Positions 1,831 to 13,667 of a stretch of DNA of 28,490 bases are shown here, in pieces. Each line of letters starts with the position of its first letter. Position 1 is the first letter of the stretch. The stretch is from a virus: positions 1 through 28,490 of IMG/VR virus record IMGVR_UViG_3300037487_001241; one strand, given 5' to 3'. Below the pieces are notes generated by a model. It saw only the letters and a program-made list of their open reading frames with translations. It ran no database searches and was not told the DNA's origin. Both the position numbers and the translations under genes were made by a program.

Positions 1831-2547
1831 ATGAGCGAAAATAACCAACTAACAATTAAAGAACAGCCGCAGCCAAGCGTTGCGCTAATGCTGCAAACAA
1901 TCTGCGAACGCGGAATCACCGCAGAGAATACAGAGGCGATGACGCAACTGATGAAGTTGCACGAACGCATGGAGGACAGGCAAGCCGAGCGCGACTTCAA
2001 CGCCGCATTTTCCGCGCTACAAGCGGAGACGCCGGACATTGTGGCAACGTCCGCTATTCCTAATCGCGGAAAATACGAGCGTTTTGAGGACGTGATGCAC
2101 GTCATGCGCCCGCTGCTATCAAAGCACGGTTTCAGCGTTTCGTTTTCTCAGGAGACGGGCGACAGAATCACCGTGACTTGCCACTTGCGGCACGCGAGCG
2201 GGCATAGTCAGCAAACGAAGTTTGGCGTGCGCCTTGGGGGGAAAGCCGACAGCGAGACACAAGCCGACTGCAAGGCGAGCACCACGGCGAAGCGTAATAG
2301 CCTACTACAGGCGCTGAACATCGTTATCCGGCAAGACTGCATGCAAGACGAGGACGACGCGAGAATCACGGGCGAGGTTGTCAGCGCGGAGCAAGCGGCA
2401 TCACTATTTGAGCGGGTCGAATCCGTTGGAGCGGACAAGTCAGCGTTCCTTTCTTACGCTGGCGCAAAAACCTTCTCAGAAATCAGCGCAAGCCGATATG
2501 ACGCGCTAGACGCCATGCTCGCACGCAAGGAAAAAGCCAAAGCCTAG
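1831..2547 (+). CDS. erf: ERF-family single-strand annealing recombinase
   Basis: 238 aa. The region from about residue 45 to 175 fits the ERF superfamily of phage annealing proteins: EDRQAERDFNAAFSALQAE, then GKYERFEDV, MRPLLSKHGFSVSFS, a strand pair around RITVTCHLRHASGHSQ, and the Ala/Thr-rich block ASTTAKRNSLLQALNI. Such proteins coat ssDNA left by a 5'-3' exonuclease and anneal complementary strands during replication and end repair. The exonuclease gene follows after two bases, making a classic Red-like pair. The acidic, variable C-terminus (from about 180) matches the usual tail. The start is ATG 1831 after an A/C-rich leader with no SD sequence. Confidence 0.85.
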   Translation: MSENNQLTIKEQPQPSVALMLQTICERGITAENTEAMTQLMKLHERMEDRQAERDFNAAFSALQAETPDIVATSAIPNRGKYERFEDVMHVMRPLLSKHGFSVSFSQETGDRITVTCHLRHASGHSQQTKFGVRLGGKADSETQADCKASTTAKRNSLLQALNIVIRQDCMQDEDDARITGEVVSAEQAASLFERVESVGADKSAFLSYAGAKTFSEISASRYDALDAMLARKEKAKA

Positions 2548-2549
2548 CC

Positions 2550-3170
2550 ATGCCAAAGATTCACGAAATAACACAAGGCGATCTCGATTGGCTAACGCTG
2601 CGCGTGGGGCGCGTTACCGCCAGCGACTTTGACCGCATCGTTACGCCGGAATTTAAGGCGCGAGACGGAGCAACTCCTTACACCTACCTTTGCGAGAAAA
2701 TCGCGGAGGCATACAAGGGAAAGCCGATGGCCGGAATATCCACTTGGGAAACCGAGCAGGGGCAACTCCTAGAGGACGAGGCACGCGGCTGGTATGCGAT
2801 GGAGCACGATGATGTGAAGATTCGCAACGTCGGCTTTGTTGAGCACGATAACGGGCGGTGCGGATGCTCGCCGGATGCCTTGCTTGGCGAGGACGGCGGG
2901 CTGGAAATAAAATGCCCTCAGCCCACAAACCATGTGCGCTATTTACTAGACGGGATTTTGCCCAAGGACTACGCGCCCCAAGTGCATTTCAGCATCTACG
3001 TAACGGGCGCGAAATGGTGGCGTTTCGTCTCCTACCATCGCGGCTATCCCGCGTTCGTTCTGCGCGTTGAACGCGATGAATCAATCATGGCAAAAATAGA
3101 CGCCGCGCTTGCCGCCTTTTATGTCCGCTACGATGCGGCAATGGAGTCTCTCAGAAACAAAACCAACTAA
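2550..3170 (+). CDS. YqaJ/lambda-exonuclease family recombination nuclease
   Basis: 206 aa with the PD-(D/E)XK core of the YqaJ viral recombinase family. W14..R18 and RVTASDFDRI (21-30) form the N-terminal signature, GQLLEDEAR (71-79) supplies the helix glutamate, D109 lies in CGCSPDALLG, and E119-x-K121 lies in LEIKCP. These are the metal-binding and catalytic positions of lambda Exo. The expected role is processive 5'-3' resection of dsDNA ends, feeding the annealing protein encoded immediately upstream. Length is normal for the family and no catalytic residue is missing. The start is ATG 2550, two bases after the recombinase stop. Confidence 0.88.
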   Translation: MPKIHEITQGDLDWLTLRVGRVTASDFDRIVTPEFKARDGATPYTYLCEKIAEAYKGKPMAGISTWETEQGQLLEDEARGWYAMEHDDVKIRNVGFVEHDNGRCGCSPDALLGEDGGLEIKCPQPTNHVRYLLDGILPKDYAPQVHFSIYVTGAKWWRFVSYHRGYPAFVLRVERDESIMAKIDAALAAFYVRYDAAMESLRNKTN

Positions 3171-4229: not shown

Positions 4230-4528
4230 ACCATCCCGAACTAGACTTTGCGCGATACCCTAGCGCGCCCGGATACAAGCGCGGCGGCACATCCAAGGCG
4301 GCGGCTGATTCAATGCGCGAGAAAGCGCCCACGCTGCGGCAAAAAGTGCTAGACGTTCTGTTTCATCAAGACCTAACCGCTGACGAGTGCGCGGCGGAAG
4401 TTGGCAAGTCGCTTTTGTCAATCCGCCCCCGCCTCACTGAATTGCTAAGACTTGGCAAGATAGCCGACACGGGCACCACGCGTCGCAACGCCAGCGGAAA
4501 GCAGGCAACTGTTTGGCGCGCAGTATGA
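4226..4528 (+). CDS. Winged-helix DNA-binding protein, 100 aa
   Basis: Residues 34-98 form a winged helix-turn-helix: LRQKVLDVLFHQDLTADECA (helix 1 and turn), EVGKSLLSIRPRLTELLRLG (recognition helix) and the wing IADTGTTRRNASGKQATVWRA. Similar small wHTH proteins, with NASG-x-x-xVW in the wing, are common next to phage replication genes. It probably binds DNA as a regulator or accessory replication factor. It overlaps both neighbours by four bases and lies directly before the RusA-like gene. The assignment to wHTH is firm, the role is not. Confidence 0.75.
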   Translation: MNHPELDFARYPSAPGYKRGGTSKAAADSMREKAPTLRQKVLDVLFHQDLTADECAAEVGKSLLSIRPRLTELLRLGKIADTGTTRRNASGKQATVWRAV

Positions 4529-4902
4529 ACCCGCACACAATTCGCCGCCTTTTTCCTCACGCATCTCAATCACTAATCGCCGCAAATGAACAAGACTACG
4601 GGAAACCTTACATTGAAAGTGATGGGCAGATTGCCAAGCTGGAACGCGCTGCTGGCGATGAACCATTGGCAGCGAGCAAAGGAAAAAAAGAAGCATCTGG
4701 AAGAGTTCATTTCAAGTTTGTCTCTGTCCGAAAACGCCTCATTGATCCCGATAATGTTAGCGTTAAATGGCTGCTCGACTGTTGCCGACGCATCGGCCTT
4801 GTTGCGGGAGATGAGCACGACAAAATCACGCTCGAAACCACGCAACGCAAAGCCGCGAAAGGCGAGGAAGAGCATACTTTAATAGAAATTATTTACCCTT
4901 AA
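4525..4902 (+). CDS. RusA-like Holliday junction resolvase (frame 1 product)
   Basis: 125 aa from ATG 4525, which overlaps the previous stop. The C-terminal half has the RusA signature: strand RVHFKFVSVRKR, then D74-P-D76-N77, helix VKWLLDCCRRIGLVAGDE with D85 and D96, and strand HTLIEIIYP. In RusA these aspartates bind metal for Holliday-junction cleavage. The N-terminal half (residues 1-55) does not look like RusA. A RusA-like N-terminus is found instead in the overlapping frame at 4586. The protein may act as it stands, or its C-terminal half may be joined by frameshifting. The context with recombination and replication genes fits a resolvase. Confidence 0.7.
   Translation: MNPHTIRRLFPHASQSLIAANEQDYGKPYIESDGQIAKLERAAGDEPLAASKGKKEASGRVHFKFVSVRKRLIDPDNVSVKWLLDCCRRIGLVAGDEHDKITLETTQRKAAKGEEEHTLIEIIYP
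4586..4882 (+). CDS. Overlapping frame encoding a RusA-like N-terminal half
   Basis: A 98-codon frame lies wholly inside the RusA-like gene in the +1 frame. Its ATG has the same context as many genes here (CGCCGCAAATGAAC). Residues 8-40 read like a RusA N-terminus: LTLKVMGRLPSWN, then ALLAMNHWQRAKEKKKHLEE. After that the product becomes Ser/Lys/Arg-rich (MSTTKSRSKPRNAKPRKARK), as expected when the real reading frame is elsewhere. The likely use is to start here and shift -1 at 4684-4690 into the other frame. The alternatives are a genuine overprinted gene or a chance frame. Confidence 0.45.
   Translation: MNKTTGNLTLKVMGRLPSWNALLAMNHWQRAKEKKKHLEEFISSLSLSENASLIPIMLALNGCSTVADASALLREMSTTKSRSKPRNAKPRKARKSIL
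4684..4690 (+). promoter_or_regulatory. Candidate -1 ribosomal frameshift site A AAA AAG
   Basis: Seven A residues (4683-4689) and G4690 make the dnaX-type heptamer A AAA AAG. In the frame starting at 4586 it is phased exactly as required (GAA AAA AAG AAG), and a -1 slip moves into the RusA-like frame at GAA 4690. The fused product would be 35 + 70 = 105 residues, near RusA size. No strong downstream stem or upstream SD-like stimulator is evident. Confidence 0.45.
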
Positions 4903-5412: not shown

Positions 5413-6193
5413 GCAATCCATGTATGCCAAACTATTCAGTCGAATCGCGCAATCCTCACTTATGGAGCAAGATGTAGCAACGCGCTATTGCTTTATGATG
5501 CTTCTCGCTATTTCAGACCCTTACGGCGACGTTATCGGCACAGACGTTGCCATTGCTCGCACGGTCAATCTTCCGCTCGATACTTTCAAGCGTTGCCTTG
5601 CCGATTTAATGTCACCCGATCCAGACTCCAACAGCCAAGCAAAAGACGGGCGGAGAATTGTCGAAAGCGAGGCGGGCAGAGGCTACACGATTGTAAATTA
5701 CCTGACCTATCGGGCCATAAAAAGCGAGGAAGAGAAGAAAGCCTATATGCGGGAATACATGGCAAGGCGTCGTAAAGCGCAGAAAGACAGCGATGTAACC
5801 GATGTAAAGATTTGTAAAACTGTGTTAAGCGAGGTAACACAGTCAGAGGTAGAGTTAGAGAAAGAGAGAGATAGAGAGATAGAGAAAGAGGAAGTAAAGA
5901 AGTCGGCGTTGCCTCCTGTTATTTCTAAAAAGCCTGTTGTTCGTCCTTCGCAGGAGGAAGTTGAGGCCTATGCAGTCGAACTAGGGCTTACCAAGAATGA
6001 CGGCGCGTTCAAGTTTGACGGCTGGCTTTCAAACGGATTTACGGCAAACGGGAAGCCAGTGAAGGATTGGAAAGCAGCGATGCGGACTTGGCAACGTGGC
6101 GGATTCTTCCCAAGTCAAAAGGCCGCAAGCCCGCAGAACCGTAGAGCGGGCGAATATCCCGAAACCATTGTGGGGAAAATCATCACAATATGA
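5411..6193 (+). CDS. Replisome-organizer type replication initiation protein
   Basis: 260 aa. Residues 5-100 are the winged-helix N-terminal domain typical of phage replisome organizers and DnaD-like initiators: YAKLFSRIAQSSLMEQDVAT, FMMLLAISDPYGDVIGT, then RTVNLPLDTFKRCLADLMSP. A highly charged linker follows (KKAYMREYMARRRKAQKD, then an E/K/R-rich run). The C-terminal segment near residues 200-235 (FDGWLSNGFTANGKPVKDWK) is common in such proteins. It should bind the origin and recruit the helicase loader encoded next (overlap ATGA). ATG 5411 is the longest start; ATG 5420 is favoured if the overlapping promoter is used. Confidence 0.75.
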   Translation: MQSMYAKLFSRIAQSSLMEQDVATRYCFMMLLAISDPYGDVIGTDVAIARTVNLPLDTFKRCLADLMSPDPDSNSQAKDGRRIVESEAGRGYTIVNYLTYRAIKSEEEKKAYMREYMARRRKAQKDSDVTDVKICKTVLSEVTQSEVELEKERDREIEKEEVKKSALPPVISKKPVVRPSQEEVEAYAVELGLTKNDGAFKFDGWLSNGFTANGKPVKDWKAAMRTWQRGGFFPSQKAASPQNRRAGEYPETIVGKIITI

Positions 6194-6909
6194 CCGACAC
6201 ACCGAAACATACGGGCGAGCTTGGAATCGTCGAGGCGGTTGAAAAGCTGTTGGCCGAAATAGAGCCAGCAACCGAAGCCGAGTGCCACGCCCACGATTTC
6301 AAAGCATACATCGCCCCGCAGCTTAAAAGATTCGGCTTTGAGTGCCGCTATCGCACGGACGGGCTAATGGACGGCGCAGACGGGCGCTGTGTGCTTCAAA
6401 AGCGCACGCTGGCGGCATTGACCAATATGCTTTGCGGAAAGGGCGCAATCGCCGCCATGATAGGGCAAAGGGGCATCGGTAAAACTCAGATTGCCTCGCA
6501 ATACGTCATTGATCGGCTTTGGGCAGAGCATGGCACGGCGAGGTGCTCGTGGTTTCACTACACGAAGCTGACAACCATAGTCGCAAAGCTCAAGGCGTTC
6601 TACGGTGATTTTGGCACAACCGACATGGAGCGTCTGGAAATGTATCGCGCCTTTCTAACGCACTCACTTGACCTGCTAATCATAGACGAACTCCACGAAG
6701 TAGCCGACGATAGCAGACATAAAGACCGCATACTGTCTGACATATTGGACGCGCGCTATGCAGCGAAAAAGGACACGCTTTTGATTTCCAACCAATCCGC
6801 AAGCGAGTTTTCCAAGGCCACAAGTCCATCTATTATCTCCCGGCTGAACGAACACGGCGGAATCATTCCTTGCGAATGGGCGTCATTTAGAGAAAAACCA
6901 GCGCAATGA
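6190..6909 (+). CDS. DnaC-like AAA+ helicase loader ATPase
   Basis: 239 aa. The Walker A motif GQRGIGKT lies at residues 92-99 and the Walker B motif LLIIDELHE at 162-170. A sensor-1-like LLISNQS is near 197 and an arginine-containing SIISRLNEHGG near 217. This order and spacing match DnaC/IstB-type ATPases that load the replicative helicase. The N-terminal 80 residues would contact the initiator or helicase; they include ECRYRTDGL but no clear zinc site. The gene overlaps the initiator by four bases. IstB of transposons has a similar ATPase, but no transposase is nearby, so the replication role is preferred. Confidence 0.82.
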   Translation: MTDTPKHTGELGIVEAVEKLLAEIEPATEAECHAHDFKAYIAPQLKRFGFECRYRTDGLMDGADGRCVLQKRTLAALTNMLCGKGAIAAMIGQRGIGKTQIASQYVIDRLWAEHGTARCSWFHYTKLTTIVAKLKAFYGDFGTTDMERLEMYRAFLTHSLDLLIIDELHEVADDSRHKDRILSDILDARYAAKKDTLLISNQSASEFSKATSPSIISRLNEHGGIIPCEWASFREKPAQ

Positions 6910-9914: not shown

Positions 9915-12614
9915 TTAGGCTAAGAGTCCGGCGTTCCGTAGTGCTTTGACTACTTGTGCAAGCGTGTAGCCGTCAAACGTGTCGTCCGTTTTGAGATTTG
10001 TCCCCCCGCCGAGGTGTACAACGGTTGCGCTGGCAACTGCCGTTGTCGGCTGAACGATTGGCGTCGCATTCCAGAAGCTGAGTTTCTGCGTTGTTGCCGC
10101 GCCTATCTTCGTTCCGGTCGTCGTGTTGAAAGCGATGTTCTGCGCATCGCCTAAAGTGATTCCGCCGTTAGCTGTGAGAAGCCCCGTCAGCGTGGTTGCG
10201 CCTGTGACGGCGAGGGCGTTAGCAAGGGTGACGCCAGTTGTGCTGACCGTGACTCGCAATGTGCCGCCAGCCGTGAAGCCGAGTTGATCCTCGCCGACGC
10301 GATAGATGCCCGTGTTCGTGTCGGCTGAACTTCCGAACGAAAACGTGGGCGCCGATGCGCTTCCGCTGCTTCCCAGAACTAAAGAAGCTCCGATATTGTA
10401 ATCATAGTTGCCCGATCCAGAAAACAAGTTACCCCCTGATGAAACGTGCCAACGAAGTGTGCCATTTGTTGCAATTCCGATGTTGTTTGTGCCAATGCGA
10501 TAAATACCTGTATCGGTATCTGAACCAAACTGGATGGAAGGCGTGCTTACTGAACCATCCGGGAACAGTGAGCTTCCAGCAGTAATGTTCAGCGCATTGT
10601 TAGTTGTCCCCCCGGATGCGGTCAGCGTGAGGGCTACATTGGTTGATGAAGTGCCCGTGCGCGTATTTGAGATCGCCGCGCCTGTGGTTGTGACAACTGA
10701 GGTAAAGTTAGAGCCTGACAGTCCAATGTTTAGTCCAACGATTGAACCGCTTACATTTAAGCTAGTGGTTGAAATATCAAGCAGCTTGCCTGTCGATAAA
10801 GAGGTTGAAGCTAGGTAAATCCCTGTGCCGGATGTTAGAGAATTGAGCGGCACATATACTTGTGAGAGTGTTGTTGTCCCAATGGCATTCGCCCCGCCCA
10901 TCACAATATTTGTCGCCGCGCCAAAAGCGTTCACGGTCGTTGCCGTGGTGTTCAGCAAAGCCATTGTCGCGCTGCCTGCGACGATCCCCGTGGTGATTGT
11001 TGGGGAAGTGCCAAACACTAACGCGCCCGTGCCTGTTTCGTCTGTGAGCACGCCCGCCAACTGCGCGCTTGTGGTAGCGGCAAACTGCGAGAGATTTCCC
11101 GTGGTAAGAGCGGTGTTTGCTACGTCGCCTGTGTTCGTTCCGCTAAGATTACTGCCACTTACGGCACCAGATGCGGCAACGCTAGTCGGCGTGATTGCTC
11201 CAAGCGTTAAGCTAATCGCGGGCGTAGTTGTCGCTGTCGCCACCGTGCCGCTGACGCCGTTTGCCGTTGTCACGGAAACGCTAGTCACTGTGCCCGTAGC
11301 TGAATCCACCGCGTTCAGCGTCGTGCCGCTCATACTTAGGTTTGTGCCTAGAGTGATTGCAACGGGCAATCCGGTTCCGCCGCTGCTCGCCTGTCCAAGT
11401 AGCTTTGAGGCGGTTAGGTTAAGACCTTGATTTGTGACGGCCTGTAGTTTTTCCGATGCGCTCAGGCTTTGGGATATGTCATACCTAACCGCCCCCGAAA
11501 CGGAAAGCGGAGTGAGCGAACCAGCGTTTATGATGTCGGCTGGAACTGTAACGGGAATCGAGAGGATTGTTTTTACCTCGCCACTTGCGCGCGTGCGGAC
11601 AACGGACAATGTAAGCGCGAGCGAATCCACGCCCGCCGCCCAAAACATTTTCGCCATGTTCACCGTGTTTAGTGAAATCGTGCCGGATGCGCCGAAGGGC
11701 GCGAGCAATGAAACATTCGTTGCCGACAAGCTAGGGTCAACTGGCCCCGCGAGGTTGCCGATAAACTCCACAAGATACGCCGCGCCGTCTGTCGAAACTG
11801 TGAAGTTGTCCGCTGCGTTGGCGTTATTGTAGCGCAACTGTGGATGCCGCCCTAGCACCGTAGAAAGCTCGCCAATGCTCGCCACGGGCGAAACTGAGCC
11901 GCACACCGCCGTCACGCCGTTGACCGTCGCGCTAAGGCTATAAAGCCCGCCATAAGTGCCAGCGGCGAAAGCGATGCGAATTATTTTATTCAGCGATGAA
12001 CTTGCGGCTTGTTCAGTAGATACCGTGACGCTTGCCGTTGGTAGTGCAGTCGAGGGCGTAGCGTAGGCGGCGGGCTGTTGAACTAGCGCGATAATCTGCT
12101 GTCCCTTTGTGGAGACCGTCCCTTGCGCGATAACCGTGACAACCGCCGAGCAAACGGGAATCAGATTCGTTGCCGTCGCTGCGATTGTAGGAAGCACTCC
12201 ATTCGTCGCGCCGTCCACCTGATAGACGCCCTCGCTCAAAAGCGTGACCGTCACTGCGGGATTTCCGCCAGCTACGCTCGCCGCCGATAGCGGGTCTTCC
12301 AAGTCTTCCGCGCTAACGTCGAAATCGAGCGAAGTCAAATCCGTTGTCACGCCGTCAATCTCTAGCGCAAATGTGCCCGCCGTTGGCGCTTCATCCGCGC
12401 TTCCGATGCTGACTTGATACGTGTCGCCTGCGGTGTAATCCACGTCAAAGCTGCGCGTGTCGGTTGCTGATGGAACTACGGGCTGAATCGAGATCGCTAC
12501 GCTTTGATCGTTGCGCGTGAAGTTAGGAAAAGGAGCGATGCCACCGTCTAAGATGCTGTTGATTAAACCGCGCTGCTGCGGGTCTGAGGTGTTAATTAGT
12601 AGGTTCAGTGGCAT
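9915..12614 (-). CDS. Tail fibre / receptor-binding protein, 899 aa
   Basis: The largest gene here. The N-terminal third is Ser/Thr/Val-rich and probably beta-sandwich like (FALEIDGVTTDLTSLDFDV, YQVDGATNG). The middle carries low-complexity fibre sequence, including LSGTNTGDV and FGTSPTITT. The C-terminal third has two copies of a fibre motif: FGSDTDTGIYRIG and FGSSADTNTGIYRVG, each followed by a G[FI]xxxGTLR strand. The end (KIGAATTQKLSFW, then TLAQVVKALRNAGLLA) matches C-terminal trimerisation segments found in many phage fibres. It should bind the host surface. It has its own promoter at 12625-12652, and it follows the tape measure and tip-region genes. Confidence 0.85.
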   Translation of the reverse strand: MPLNLLINTSDPQQRGLINSILDGGIAPFPNFTRNDQSVAISIQPVVPSATDTRSFDVDYTAGDTYQVSIGSADEAPTAGTFALEIDGVTTDLTSLDFDVSAEDLEDPLSAASVAGGNPAVTVTLLSEGVYQVDGATNGVLPTIAATATNLIPVCSAVVTVIAQGTVSTKGQQIIALVQQPAAYATPSTALPTASVTVSTEQAASSSLNKIIRIAFAAGTYGGLYSLSATVNGVTAVCGSVSPVASIGELSTVLGRHPQLRYNNANAADNFTVSTDGAAYLVEFIGNLAGPVDPSLSATNVSLLAPFGASGTISLNTVNMAKMFWAAGVDSLALTLSVVRTRASGEVKTILSIPVTVPADIINAGSLTPLSVSGAVRYDISQSLSASEKLQAVTNQGLNLTASKLLGQASSGGTGLPVAITLGTNLSMSGTTLNAVDSATGTVTSVSVTTANGVSGTVATATTTPAISLTLGAITPTSVAASGAVSGSNLSGTNTGDVANTALTTGNLSQFAATTSAQLAGVLTDETGTGALVFGTSPTITTGIVAGSATMALLNTTATTVNAFGAATNIVMGGANAIGTTTLSQVYVPLNSLTSGTGIYLASTSLSTGKLLDISTTSLNVSGSIVGLNIGLSGSNFTSVVTTTGAAISNTRTGTSSTNVALTLTASGGTTNNALNITAGSSLFPDGSVSTPSIQFGSDTDTGIYRIGTNNIGIATNGTLRWHVSSGGNLFSGSGNYDYNIGASLVLGSSGSASAPTFSFGSSADTNTGIYRVGEDQLGFTAGGTLRVTVSTTGVTLANALAVTGATTLTGLLTANGGITLGDAQNIAFNTTTGTKIGAATTQKLSFWNATPIVQPTTAVASATVVHLGGGTNLKTDDTFDGYTLAQVVKALRNAGLLA

Positions 12615-12624
12615 CGCTTAAAGA

Positions 12625-12652
12625 CTTATAGTTAGGTTGAAAAATATGTCAA
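12625..12652 (-). promoter_or_regulatory. Consensus sigma70 promoter for the tail fibre gene
   Basis: On the minus strand TTGACA (12652-12647), a 16-base spacer and TATAAG (12630-12625) make an almost perfect promoter between two late genes. The start of transcription would fall near 12618-12619, only about four or five bases before ATG 12614. The fibre would then have a nearly leaderless mRNA and could be made independently of the late operon. Confidence 0.65.
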
Positions 12653-12653
12653 G

Positions 12654-13667
12654 TTAGGAACCTTCCCAGACGCAGCCAAACCACGGGACGAGACCGACGC
12701 ATATCTCCGGAGCTGTTCCATATACCGTAACGGCAGGGAAATACCCTTGCATGAGATGGGTGGTTGTGGGGCACATCAGTTTATACCAGGCTCCGCTGAG
12801 TCTGATGTCTTTTTCAGATCCTCCGGGGTCGCTGGATAGTTTTAGATACGTGAGGAGTTGATACCATGTAAATGCAGCACCCGTCAGGCTTGCGTTGTCG
12901 CTGTTCACATAATACATCGACGCAGACCAGCGTGCTCCACTTTTAATGGCGGCGGTTCCCATCACATGGTTACTATCAAACTCGACCTCCATCCATATTG
13001 CGTGATCGGAGTTCGTGAGGATGAATGTGTTATCGAAGTTCGTGACCGTTTTTCTGTCCTTCCACGTTGCGTCTTTCCAGTATGCTCGGTAGTTATACGT
13101 TTTCATCAACGTCGAAATCGGGTTAATTTTCAACGCCAATCCAGCATAAACCAGCGTCATTCCGCTTCCGTTTGTGCCGCCCGTGATCGCCGCGCCTCCT
13201 GCTGATGCAGATAGCTTTAGTGTGCTCGCCGTGATGTCGCGTGCGTAGTAGGTTGTCGCCGTCGCAAACGCGCTGCTCATCGTGCCCGTGCCCGCCGTAG
13301 TCAGCGCAATCGTGACGGGTGAATTAAGCTCTAGCCCGTGGTTAATGTTCGTGCAAGTCCAAGTGCCCGTGCCGCTGTCGTAGCTGAAAGGAATTGCTAG
13401 CGTGCCGCGCATCGTGGGGTAAAGATTCCACGGCGGCAAATACGGCGGCGGTGACGGCTGATTCCATGTGCCGTCCCATCCCATCTTGGCCTTTGTCAAA
13501 TCGAGCACCACGTTCTGATCGCTCTCGATTACTCGCCCGCTTCCACCGCTGGGAGGCAATACAACCTGCCAATCGCGGTTCATGCGGTCAATAATGCGGT
13601 TGCCGAACTTCTTAGAAAGAAACCCTTCCTTGAACGCATCCTCTCCCATTTGTGGAATTTTATCCAT
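12654..13667 (-). CDS. Tail tip-region or distal structural protein, 337 aa
   Basis: The protein begins with a charged helix (MGEDAFKEGFLSKKFGNRII). Near residues 110-175 is a beta module (INHGLELNSPVTIALTTAG, ending TLKLSASAGG) of the kind often found in phage tail and baseplate proteins. The C-terminal half is aromatic-rich (YRAYWKDATWKDRKTVTNF, SGARWSASMYYVNSD). Its position between tape-measure-distal genes and the fibre suggests a tail-tip or fibre-attachment protein. No enzymatic motif is seen. The ATG at 13667 overlaps the stop of the preceding gene by one base. Confidence 0.6.
   Translation of the reverse strand: MDKIPQMGEDAFKEGFLSKKFGNRIIDRMNRDWQVVLPPSGGSGRVIESDQNVVLDLTKAKMGWDGTWNQPSPPPYLPPWNLYPTMRGTLAIPFSYDSGTGTWTCTNINHGLELNSPVTIALTTAGTGTMSSAFATATTYYARDITASTLKLSASAGGAAITGGTNGSGMTLVYAGLALKINPISTLMKTYNYRAYWKDATWKDRKTVTNFDNTFILTNSDHAIWMEVEFDSNHVMGTAAIKSGARWSASMYYVNSDNASLTGAAFTWYQLLTYLKLSSDPGGSEKDIRLSGAWYKLMCPTTTHLMQGYFPAVTVYGTAPEICVGLVPWFGCVWEGS

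Follow-up and report, generated by a model that had tools for sequence, protein, structure and literature searches.

Overlapping genes usually encode unrelated proteins. The Rz/Rz1 genes of phage lambda form a nested overlapping pair whose products work together; these are two different proteins. Programmed -1 frameshifting, by which two overlapping frames are read, is known from IS3 OrfAB, the phage tail assembly chaperones and dnaX. For programmed -1 frameshift genes see also PRFect (PMC10885494). RusA-like resolvases, in the annotated members that we examined, are made as one chain from one frame. Here we describe a phage locus in which the N- and C-terminal halves of a RusA-like domain lie in different overlapping frames.

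Layout of the locus

The locus comes from a 28,490-base virus record with no host genome; this whole stretch is called the window below. The features are collected in Table 1. With ERF, YqaJ and DnaC-like neighbours the setting is one of recombination and replication, where one would expect to find a RusA-like nuclease.

A sequence-only reading of the region had described a RusA-like resolvase split over two frames. Its layout was confirmed: the first frame (A) is open over 4525-4902 and carries DPDN and the Asp residues, the second (B) is open over 4586-4882, and an A AAA AAG heptamer, read in B as GAA AAA AAG, lies in the phase that fits a -1 shift into A. Frame B opens with MNKTTGNLTLKVMGRLPSWNALLAMNHWQRAKEKKK and codes for GRLPSWNALLAMNHWQRAKEKKKHLEEFISSLSLSEN, after which it turns Ser/Lys/Arg-rich, as had also been noticed. 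Frame A consists of a leader, a linker and then RVHFKFVSVRKRLIDPDN...K...D, with RKRLIDPDN followed by a later Asp.

Table 1. Coordinates of the features of the locus and of neighbouring genes in the window
Feature	Position	Strand	Description
Frame A ORF	4525..4902	+	125 aa: short leader, low-confidence linker (aa 21-60), RusA-like C-terminal half (beta-alpha-beta-beta)
Frame B ORF	4586..4882	+	98 aa, +1 relative to A: RusA-like N-terminal half (strand, PSWN...HW motif, helix 1) and basic, weakly conserved tail
Frame A leader, MNPHTIRRLFPHASQSLIAANEQDYGK	4525..4606	+	Exchangeable; unrelated leaders in relatives
Zone under mainly B constraint	4613..4701	+	Most variation at B third codon positions
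A AAA AAG heptamer, B phase	4684..4690	+	By-product of Lys-Lys codons; slip site not conserved
Dual-coding zone	4702..4722	+	B: F-x-S-(A)-L, end of helix 1; A: RVHFKFV, start of first strand; both constrained
Zone under A-only constraint	4729..4899	+	RxRLxDxDN...K...D
B tail	4743..4879	+	Stays open, few residues conserved; truncated in relative L147
Catalytic-type residues of A	D74 4744-4746, D76 4750-4752, K81 4765-4767, D96 4810-4812	+	
ERF-type annealing protein	1831-2547	+	Neighbouring recombination gene
YqaJ-type exonuclease	2550-3170	+	Neighbouring recombination gene
DnaC-like helicase loader	6190..6909	+	Neighbour; replication/recombination module context

Conservation of both frames

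Searches with either frame as query retrieved IMG/VR relatives with identities from 94% down to about 45%. Both frames were present in every relative examined, in agreement with the earlier remark that the two recur and with the suggestion that their overlap is conserved. When the query was the C-terminal half of A alone, which lies mostly beyond the conserved part of B, a B frame was found in the +1 frame at 80 of 80 retrieved loci. Seventy-nine of these were recognised by motif; in the other, L096, the B His is replaced by Phe. A further scan yielded 80 IMG/VR loci and three Verrucomicrobia genome contigs. The motif search was passed by 73 of these 83; among the ten failures nine had a B-type frame on inspection, and L269 ends at a contig edge. 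The scans overlap in contigs, so that their counts of loci are not additive; 81 unique sequences were analysed in detail, with 34 representatives that are under 88% identical.

The three Verrucomicrobia contigs were found in a scan of bacterial genomes with an A profile; a scan with the B profile gave no match. The relatives on Verrucomicrobium contigs (L193 and L194) suggest a Verrucomicrobiota host for the window phage.

The HW codon of B and RxRLxDxDN of A are separated by 65 nt in all of the 81 loci but one, L015, where the distance is 68 nt; L176, an archaeal virus record outside this set, has 62 nt. The spacing varies by whole codons only and hence both frames are always kept. In the representatives, the P, N, H and R residues of B are present in 34/34 and W in 33/34.

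This regularity bears on the possibility that a single RusA gene has decayed or was mis-sequenced and is broken by an indel. Sequencing errors often break frames at runs of A. However, the same 62, 65 or 68 nt arrangement occurs in every relative, across independent assemblies and bacterial genome contigs, and both halves are conserved. The explanation is refuted by this conservation, and we give it hardly any credence.

Constraint on the shared bases

Base variation among the 34 representatives is greatest at the third codon position of B as far as about +35, counted from the His codon, and at the third codon position of A beyond +60. From +38 to +58 (window 4702-4722) both frames are held. 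The requirement of B for Phe, Ser, Ala and Leu leaves the third base of A fourfold codons nearly frozen at several sites in this stretch, and the fourfold B codon at +36 has C as its third base in 16 of 17 cases because A needs Arg.

Codon resampling was used to obtain the numbers expected under constraint on one frame only. The F, S, A and L residues of B (+42 to +54) were observed in 30, 30, 29 and 33 of 34 sequences, against about 11, 18, 13 and 11 expected under A-only constraint; all these counts lie above the maximum of 1000 A-only resamplings, although the procedure takes related sequences as independent and so overstates significance. With the same qualification, R/K (+38), a hydrophobic residue (+47), R (+50), a hydrophobic residue (+53) and S/A (+59) of A were observed 33, 34, 27, 33 and 32 times against a B-only expectation of about 16, 17, 18, 7 and 13, and the A positions exceeded the maximum of the B-only resampling at five of six sites.

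The parsimony count takes relationship into account, since it uses a tree, which was built without the dual zone. On this tree, A third positions changed in 6.3 steps within the zone, compared with about 12 downstream of it (p 0.0045); over +27 to +58 their changes were depressed (p 0.003). Third-position changes of B were fewer than upstream (p 0.0027). About 20 nt are dual coding: here the same bases are under amino-acid constraint in A and in B.

In 33 of the 34 representatives frame B stays open beyond RxR for 45 codons or more, against 17.4 expected from synonymous resampling, in which relatives are not independent and significance is overstated. The third frame was open in 0 against 0.6 expected and so agreed with the same resampling. 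The conservation of B, together with its openness beyond synonymous-codon expectation, is not chance.

In the tail of B openness alone is unusual, and the residues vary. A selected basic composition of the tail was considered and rejected, as the net charge was 6.18 against 6.44 expected from the A codons. In one relative (L147) B ends shortly past its helix. The long Ser/Lys/Arg-rich tail is thus not always needed, though it is open elsewhere.

Proposed frameshifting at the A AAA AAG heptamer

The sequence-only reading had proposed that a -1 slip at A AAA AAG joins B to A in a full-domain protein of 105 residues. More broadly, one protein of 105-107 aa would result if the ribosome were programmed to shift by -1, or if the polymerase slipped at the A run during transcription. 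The heptamer of the window is in the correct phase, a canonical heptamer occurs at 36 of the 81 loci, and the fusion has some RusA similarity. Yet the heptamer is absent from 45 of the 81 loci, and its position relative to the His codon differs among the others (+11, +20 or +41, mostly +20 or +11, and in one case -13). Its presence is accounted for by adjacent Lys codons. Alignment of homologues, which had been proposed as a check, bore out the joint conservation of the two frames but not that of the heptamer.

Pseudoknot-free downstream structure beyond that of shuffled sequences was not found at five loci (80 nt each): z was 0.02 in the window and 0.08, -0.57, 1.58 and 0.44 elsewhere. The B-frame constraint extends about 30 nt past the heptamer. 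As the end of the B helix and the first strand of A occupy the same bases, a ribosome shifting once cannot use both. The openness of B far past RxR also counts against a shift site, which would not need it. Furthermore, helix 1 is mostly missing from the fusion, whose match to the RusA profile is confined to the C-terminal half, and A has kept its own start in 34/34 representatives. On these grounds we regard joining of the two frames by slippage as quite improbable.

RusA identity of the two halves

The C-terminal half of A was compared with phrog_34, and 13 of 17 members gave a match (best 3.9e-10). Comparison of A with annotated actinophage RusA proteins by hhalign gave an E of 3e-9. Residues D74, D76, K81 and D96 are invariant in 40 aligned A proteins, and the Asp pair of D-x-D is present in 34/34 of the DNA representatives.

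AlphaFold prediction for A alone (40 sequences) gave a strand at 61-69, a helix at 81-89 and strands at 101-109 and 117-123. Residues 21-60 were mostly low-confidence coil, and neither a first strand nor helix 1 was seen. The predicted beta-alpha-beta-beta agrees with the earlier claim that the N-terminus of this frame is not RusA-like; a full RusA fold from A alone, which had been named as an outcome that would speak against the split, was not obtained. A second-look structural alignment placed residues 53-117 of E. coli RusA (2h8c) at the top for A, with a Z of 5.2 and an rmsd of 2.7 over 63. This match is modest, and a Z under 8 can reflect a common arrangement, but it is consistent with the sequence result. 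This RusA match came from the second aligner; Foldseek gave no significant match of A in the PDB, and against predicted viral proteins it listed several RusA-named proteins.

For B alone a helix was predicted at 27-52, confident in its first half and reaching past the proposed slip site. According to the predicted structures, neither A alone nor B alone has the complete RusA fold in one polypeptide. B alone had no significant family match, and the B profile was not significant against actinophage RusA. The link of B to RusA comes from its motif and from composites, in which B up to the end of its helix was joined to A from its first strand. These composites use the overlap bases twice and are search probes, not claimed as one chain. 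The window composite matched phrog_1682 contiguously over 29-143 (E 8.5e-7), whereas the slip fusion matched it over 70-143 (E 4.5e-4). Composites of other loci matched likewise (L095, E 4.1e-10), and one showed weak similarity across the join (E 9e-3 to 4e-2) to annotated single-frame RusA genes of phages of mycobacteria and Gordonia. The halves thus separately cover the RusA profile, and the idea of a RusA-like domain split over two frames was upheld.

Other searches gave no further matches. Pfam RusA (PF05866) had none at E <= 1 for A, B, the fusion or the composites, which are divergent phage sequences; the phage database had none for the window proteins, the L043 composite or L147 A; and a sequence search of solved structures with the A and B profiles gave chance matches only.

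A single-frame RusA-like frame without RusA annotation was found in MW202801.1 (L177 2261-2695), its C-terminal half lying in an unannotated gap. In this member HW and RxR are 42 codons apart, as judged from the translation, against 65 nt here. The shorter distance in the split loci would be as expected if the two halves had been folded over each other.

Overprinting offers another explanation: A could be a self-sufficient nuclease or subunit, and B a distinct small protein (a regulator or DNA-binding partner) that only resembles the N-terminal half of RusA. This would suit a frame A that is open and conserved from its own leader and a frame B that has a basic tail and no significant RusA match by itself. 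It is harder to reconcile with the lack of a first strand and of helix 1 in the prediction for A alone, where low-confidence coil precedes the conserved part, and with the contiguous fit of B plus A to one RusA profile. Moreover, the stretch of A that overlaps the N-half of B is little constrained in frame A. We consider overprinting unlikely.

Starts and leaders

Each frame has a start in 34/34 representatives. Most window genes have no recognisable Shine-Dalgarno sites at their starts, many being preceded by A/C-rich stretches. Among the relatives, in L066 TAAGGAGG precedes the B ATG and the A GTG follows 11 nt later, in L093 GGAGGA precedes the A ATG inside B, and in L138 AAGGAG precedes B and the A ATG lies 29 nt inside B. 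We conclude that the locus most likely gives rise to two separate chains.

The leaders of A are unrelated across lineages, whereas the two halves stay together. L015 combines the leader and B start of the window with a very different pair of halves, and L017 and L018 have L010-like halves behind other leaders. The leaders look as if they were exchangeable N-terminal tags on one split unit. Leader types found upstream of B in L017, L018, L043, L045, L104 and L116 include FPNAS...N, a zinc-ribbon-like CHRCGEHYIGRACPKC, IPAGYVEVRKGVYERI and TDAMRRCMHREP. L016 is like L015 in its window-type leader and B start, its very different RusA halves and its 68 nt spacing; in both, the two halves look to have been exchanged together. 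In L141 a TDAMRRCMHREPTLK leader, around 73-135 nt before the His codon, runs into frame B and not A, and frame A has no ATG, GTG or TTG start.

A proposed two-chain nuclease

Both frames are conserved and constrained, about 20 nt of them are dual coding, and the two halves jointly cover the RusA profile. We think it likely that the locus encodes two polypeptides, each half a RusA domain, which would assemble into one nuclease. One mRNA with overlapping frames would give rise to a RusA-like junction or branched-DNA nuclease in the form of two separate polypeptides, A and B each being started independently. B would provide the first strand and helix 1; the other strands, the catalytic D-x-D...K...D residues and helix 2 would come from A. 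Together the two chains would re-form a single RusA domain, which presumably dimerises as RusA does. We infer that A and B are both produced and bind to one another, and that their complex cuts branched intermediates of recombination. With a little more reserve, we also hold it probable that a nuclease domain cut into half-domains in overlapping frames, with chains assembling in trans, has been kept across diverse bacterial viruses and one archaeal virus.

In such an overlap two parts of one enzyme appear to be encoded, with the result that the same bases are under constraint from each half of a small domain, and the locus offers a natural split enzyme that is directly testable. It also becomes clear from the split why the N-terminal half keeps turning up as an orphan ORF, labelled hypothetical, whose tail looks meaningless. 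Where two ORFs overlap, annotation pipelines tend to retain a single one and could thereby miss or mislabel a recombination nuclease. An example is Caudoviricetes sp. vir555 (BK063671, a Methanomicrobiales virus), which has the same overlapping pair with 62 nt spacing. In the deposited record (BK063671.1) the B half alone is annotated, at 12539-12826 (L176 2391-2678), as a hypothetical protein, and the overlapping catalytic half A is unannotated.

Comparison with known systems

In the open-licence PMC literature we found no published report of RusA with a frameshift or with overlapping genes; frameshifting of RusA/RuvC is mentioned once, with references that include a RuvC paper. The working parts of the locus are RusA-like, and their encoding is a new arrangement as far as that literature goes.

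The locus shares with the RusA-like resolvases (E. coli RusA 2h8c; phrog_34 and phrog_1682; Mycobacterium phage LilSpotty gp67) the D-x-D...K...D residues, a profile match and a similar setting among recombination genes (ERF, YqaJ). It differs from the annotated members examined in that its N-half is read in one frame and its C-half in another that overlaps it. Programmed -1 frameshift genes likewise have two overlapping frames in -1 relation, and A AAA AAG is present in some members here; the differences are that the site is not conserved, that no stimulatory structure was found and that dual coding continues past the site. In lambda Rz/Rz1, as here, the second gene starts inside the first in the +1 frame and both products are constrained. 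However, Rz and Rz1 are different proteins, whereas the two frames of the present locus appear to encode halves of one enzyme domain.
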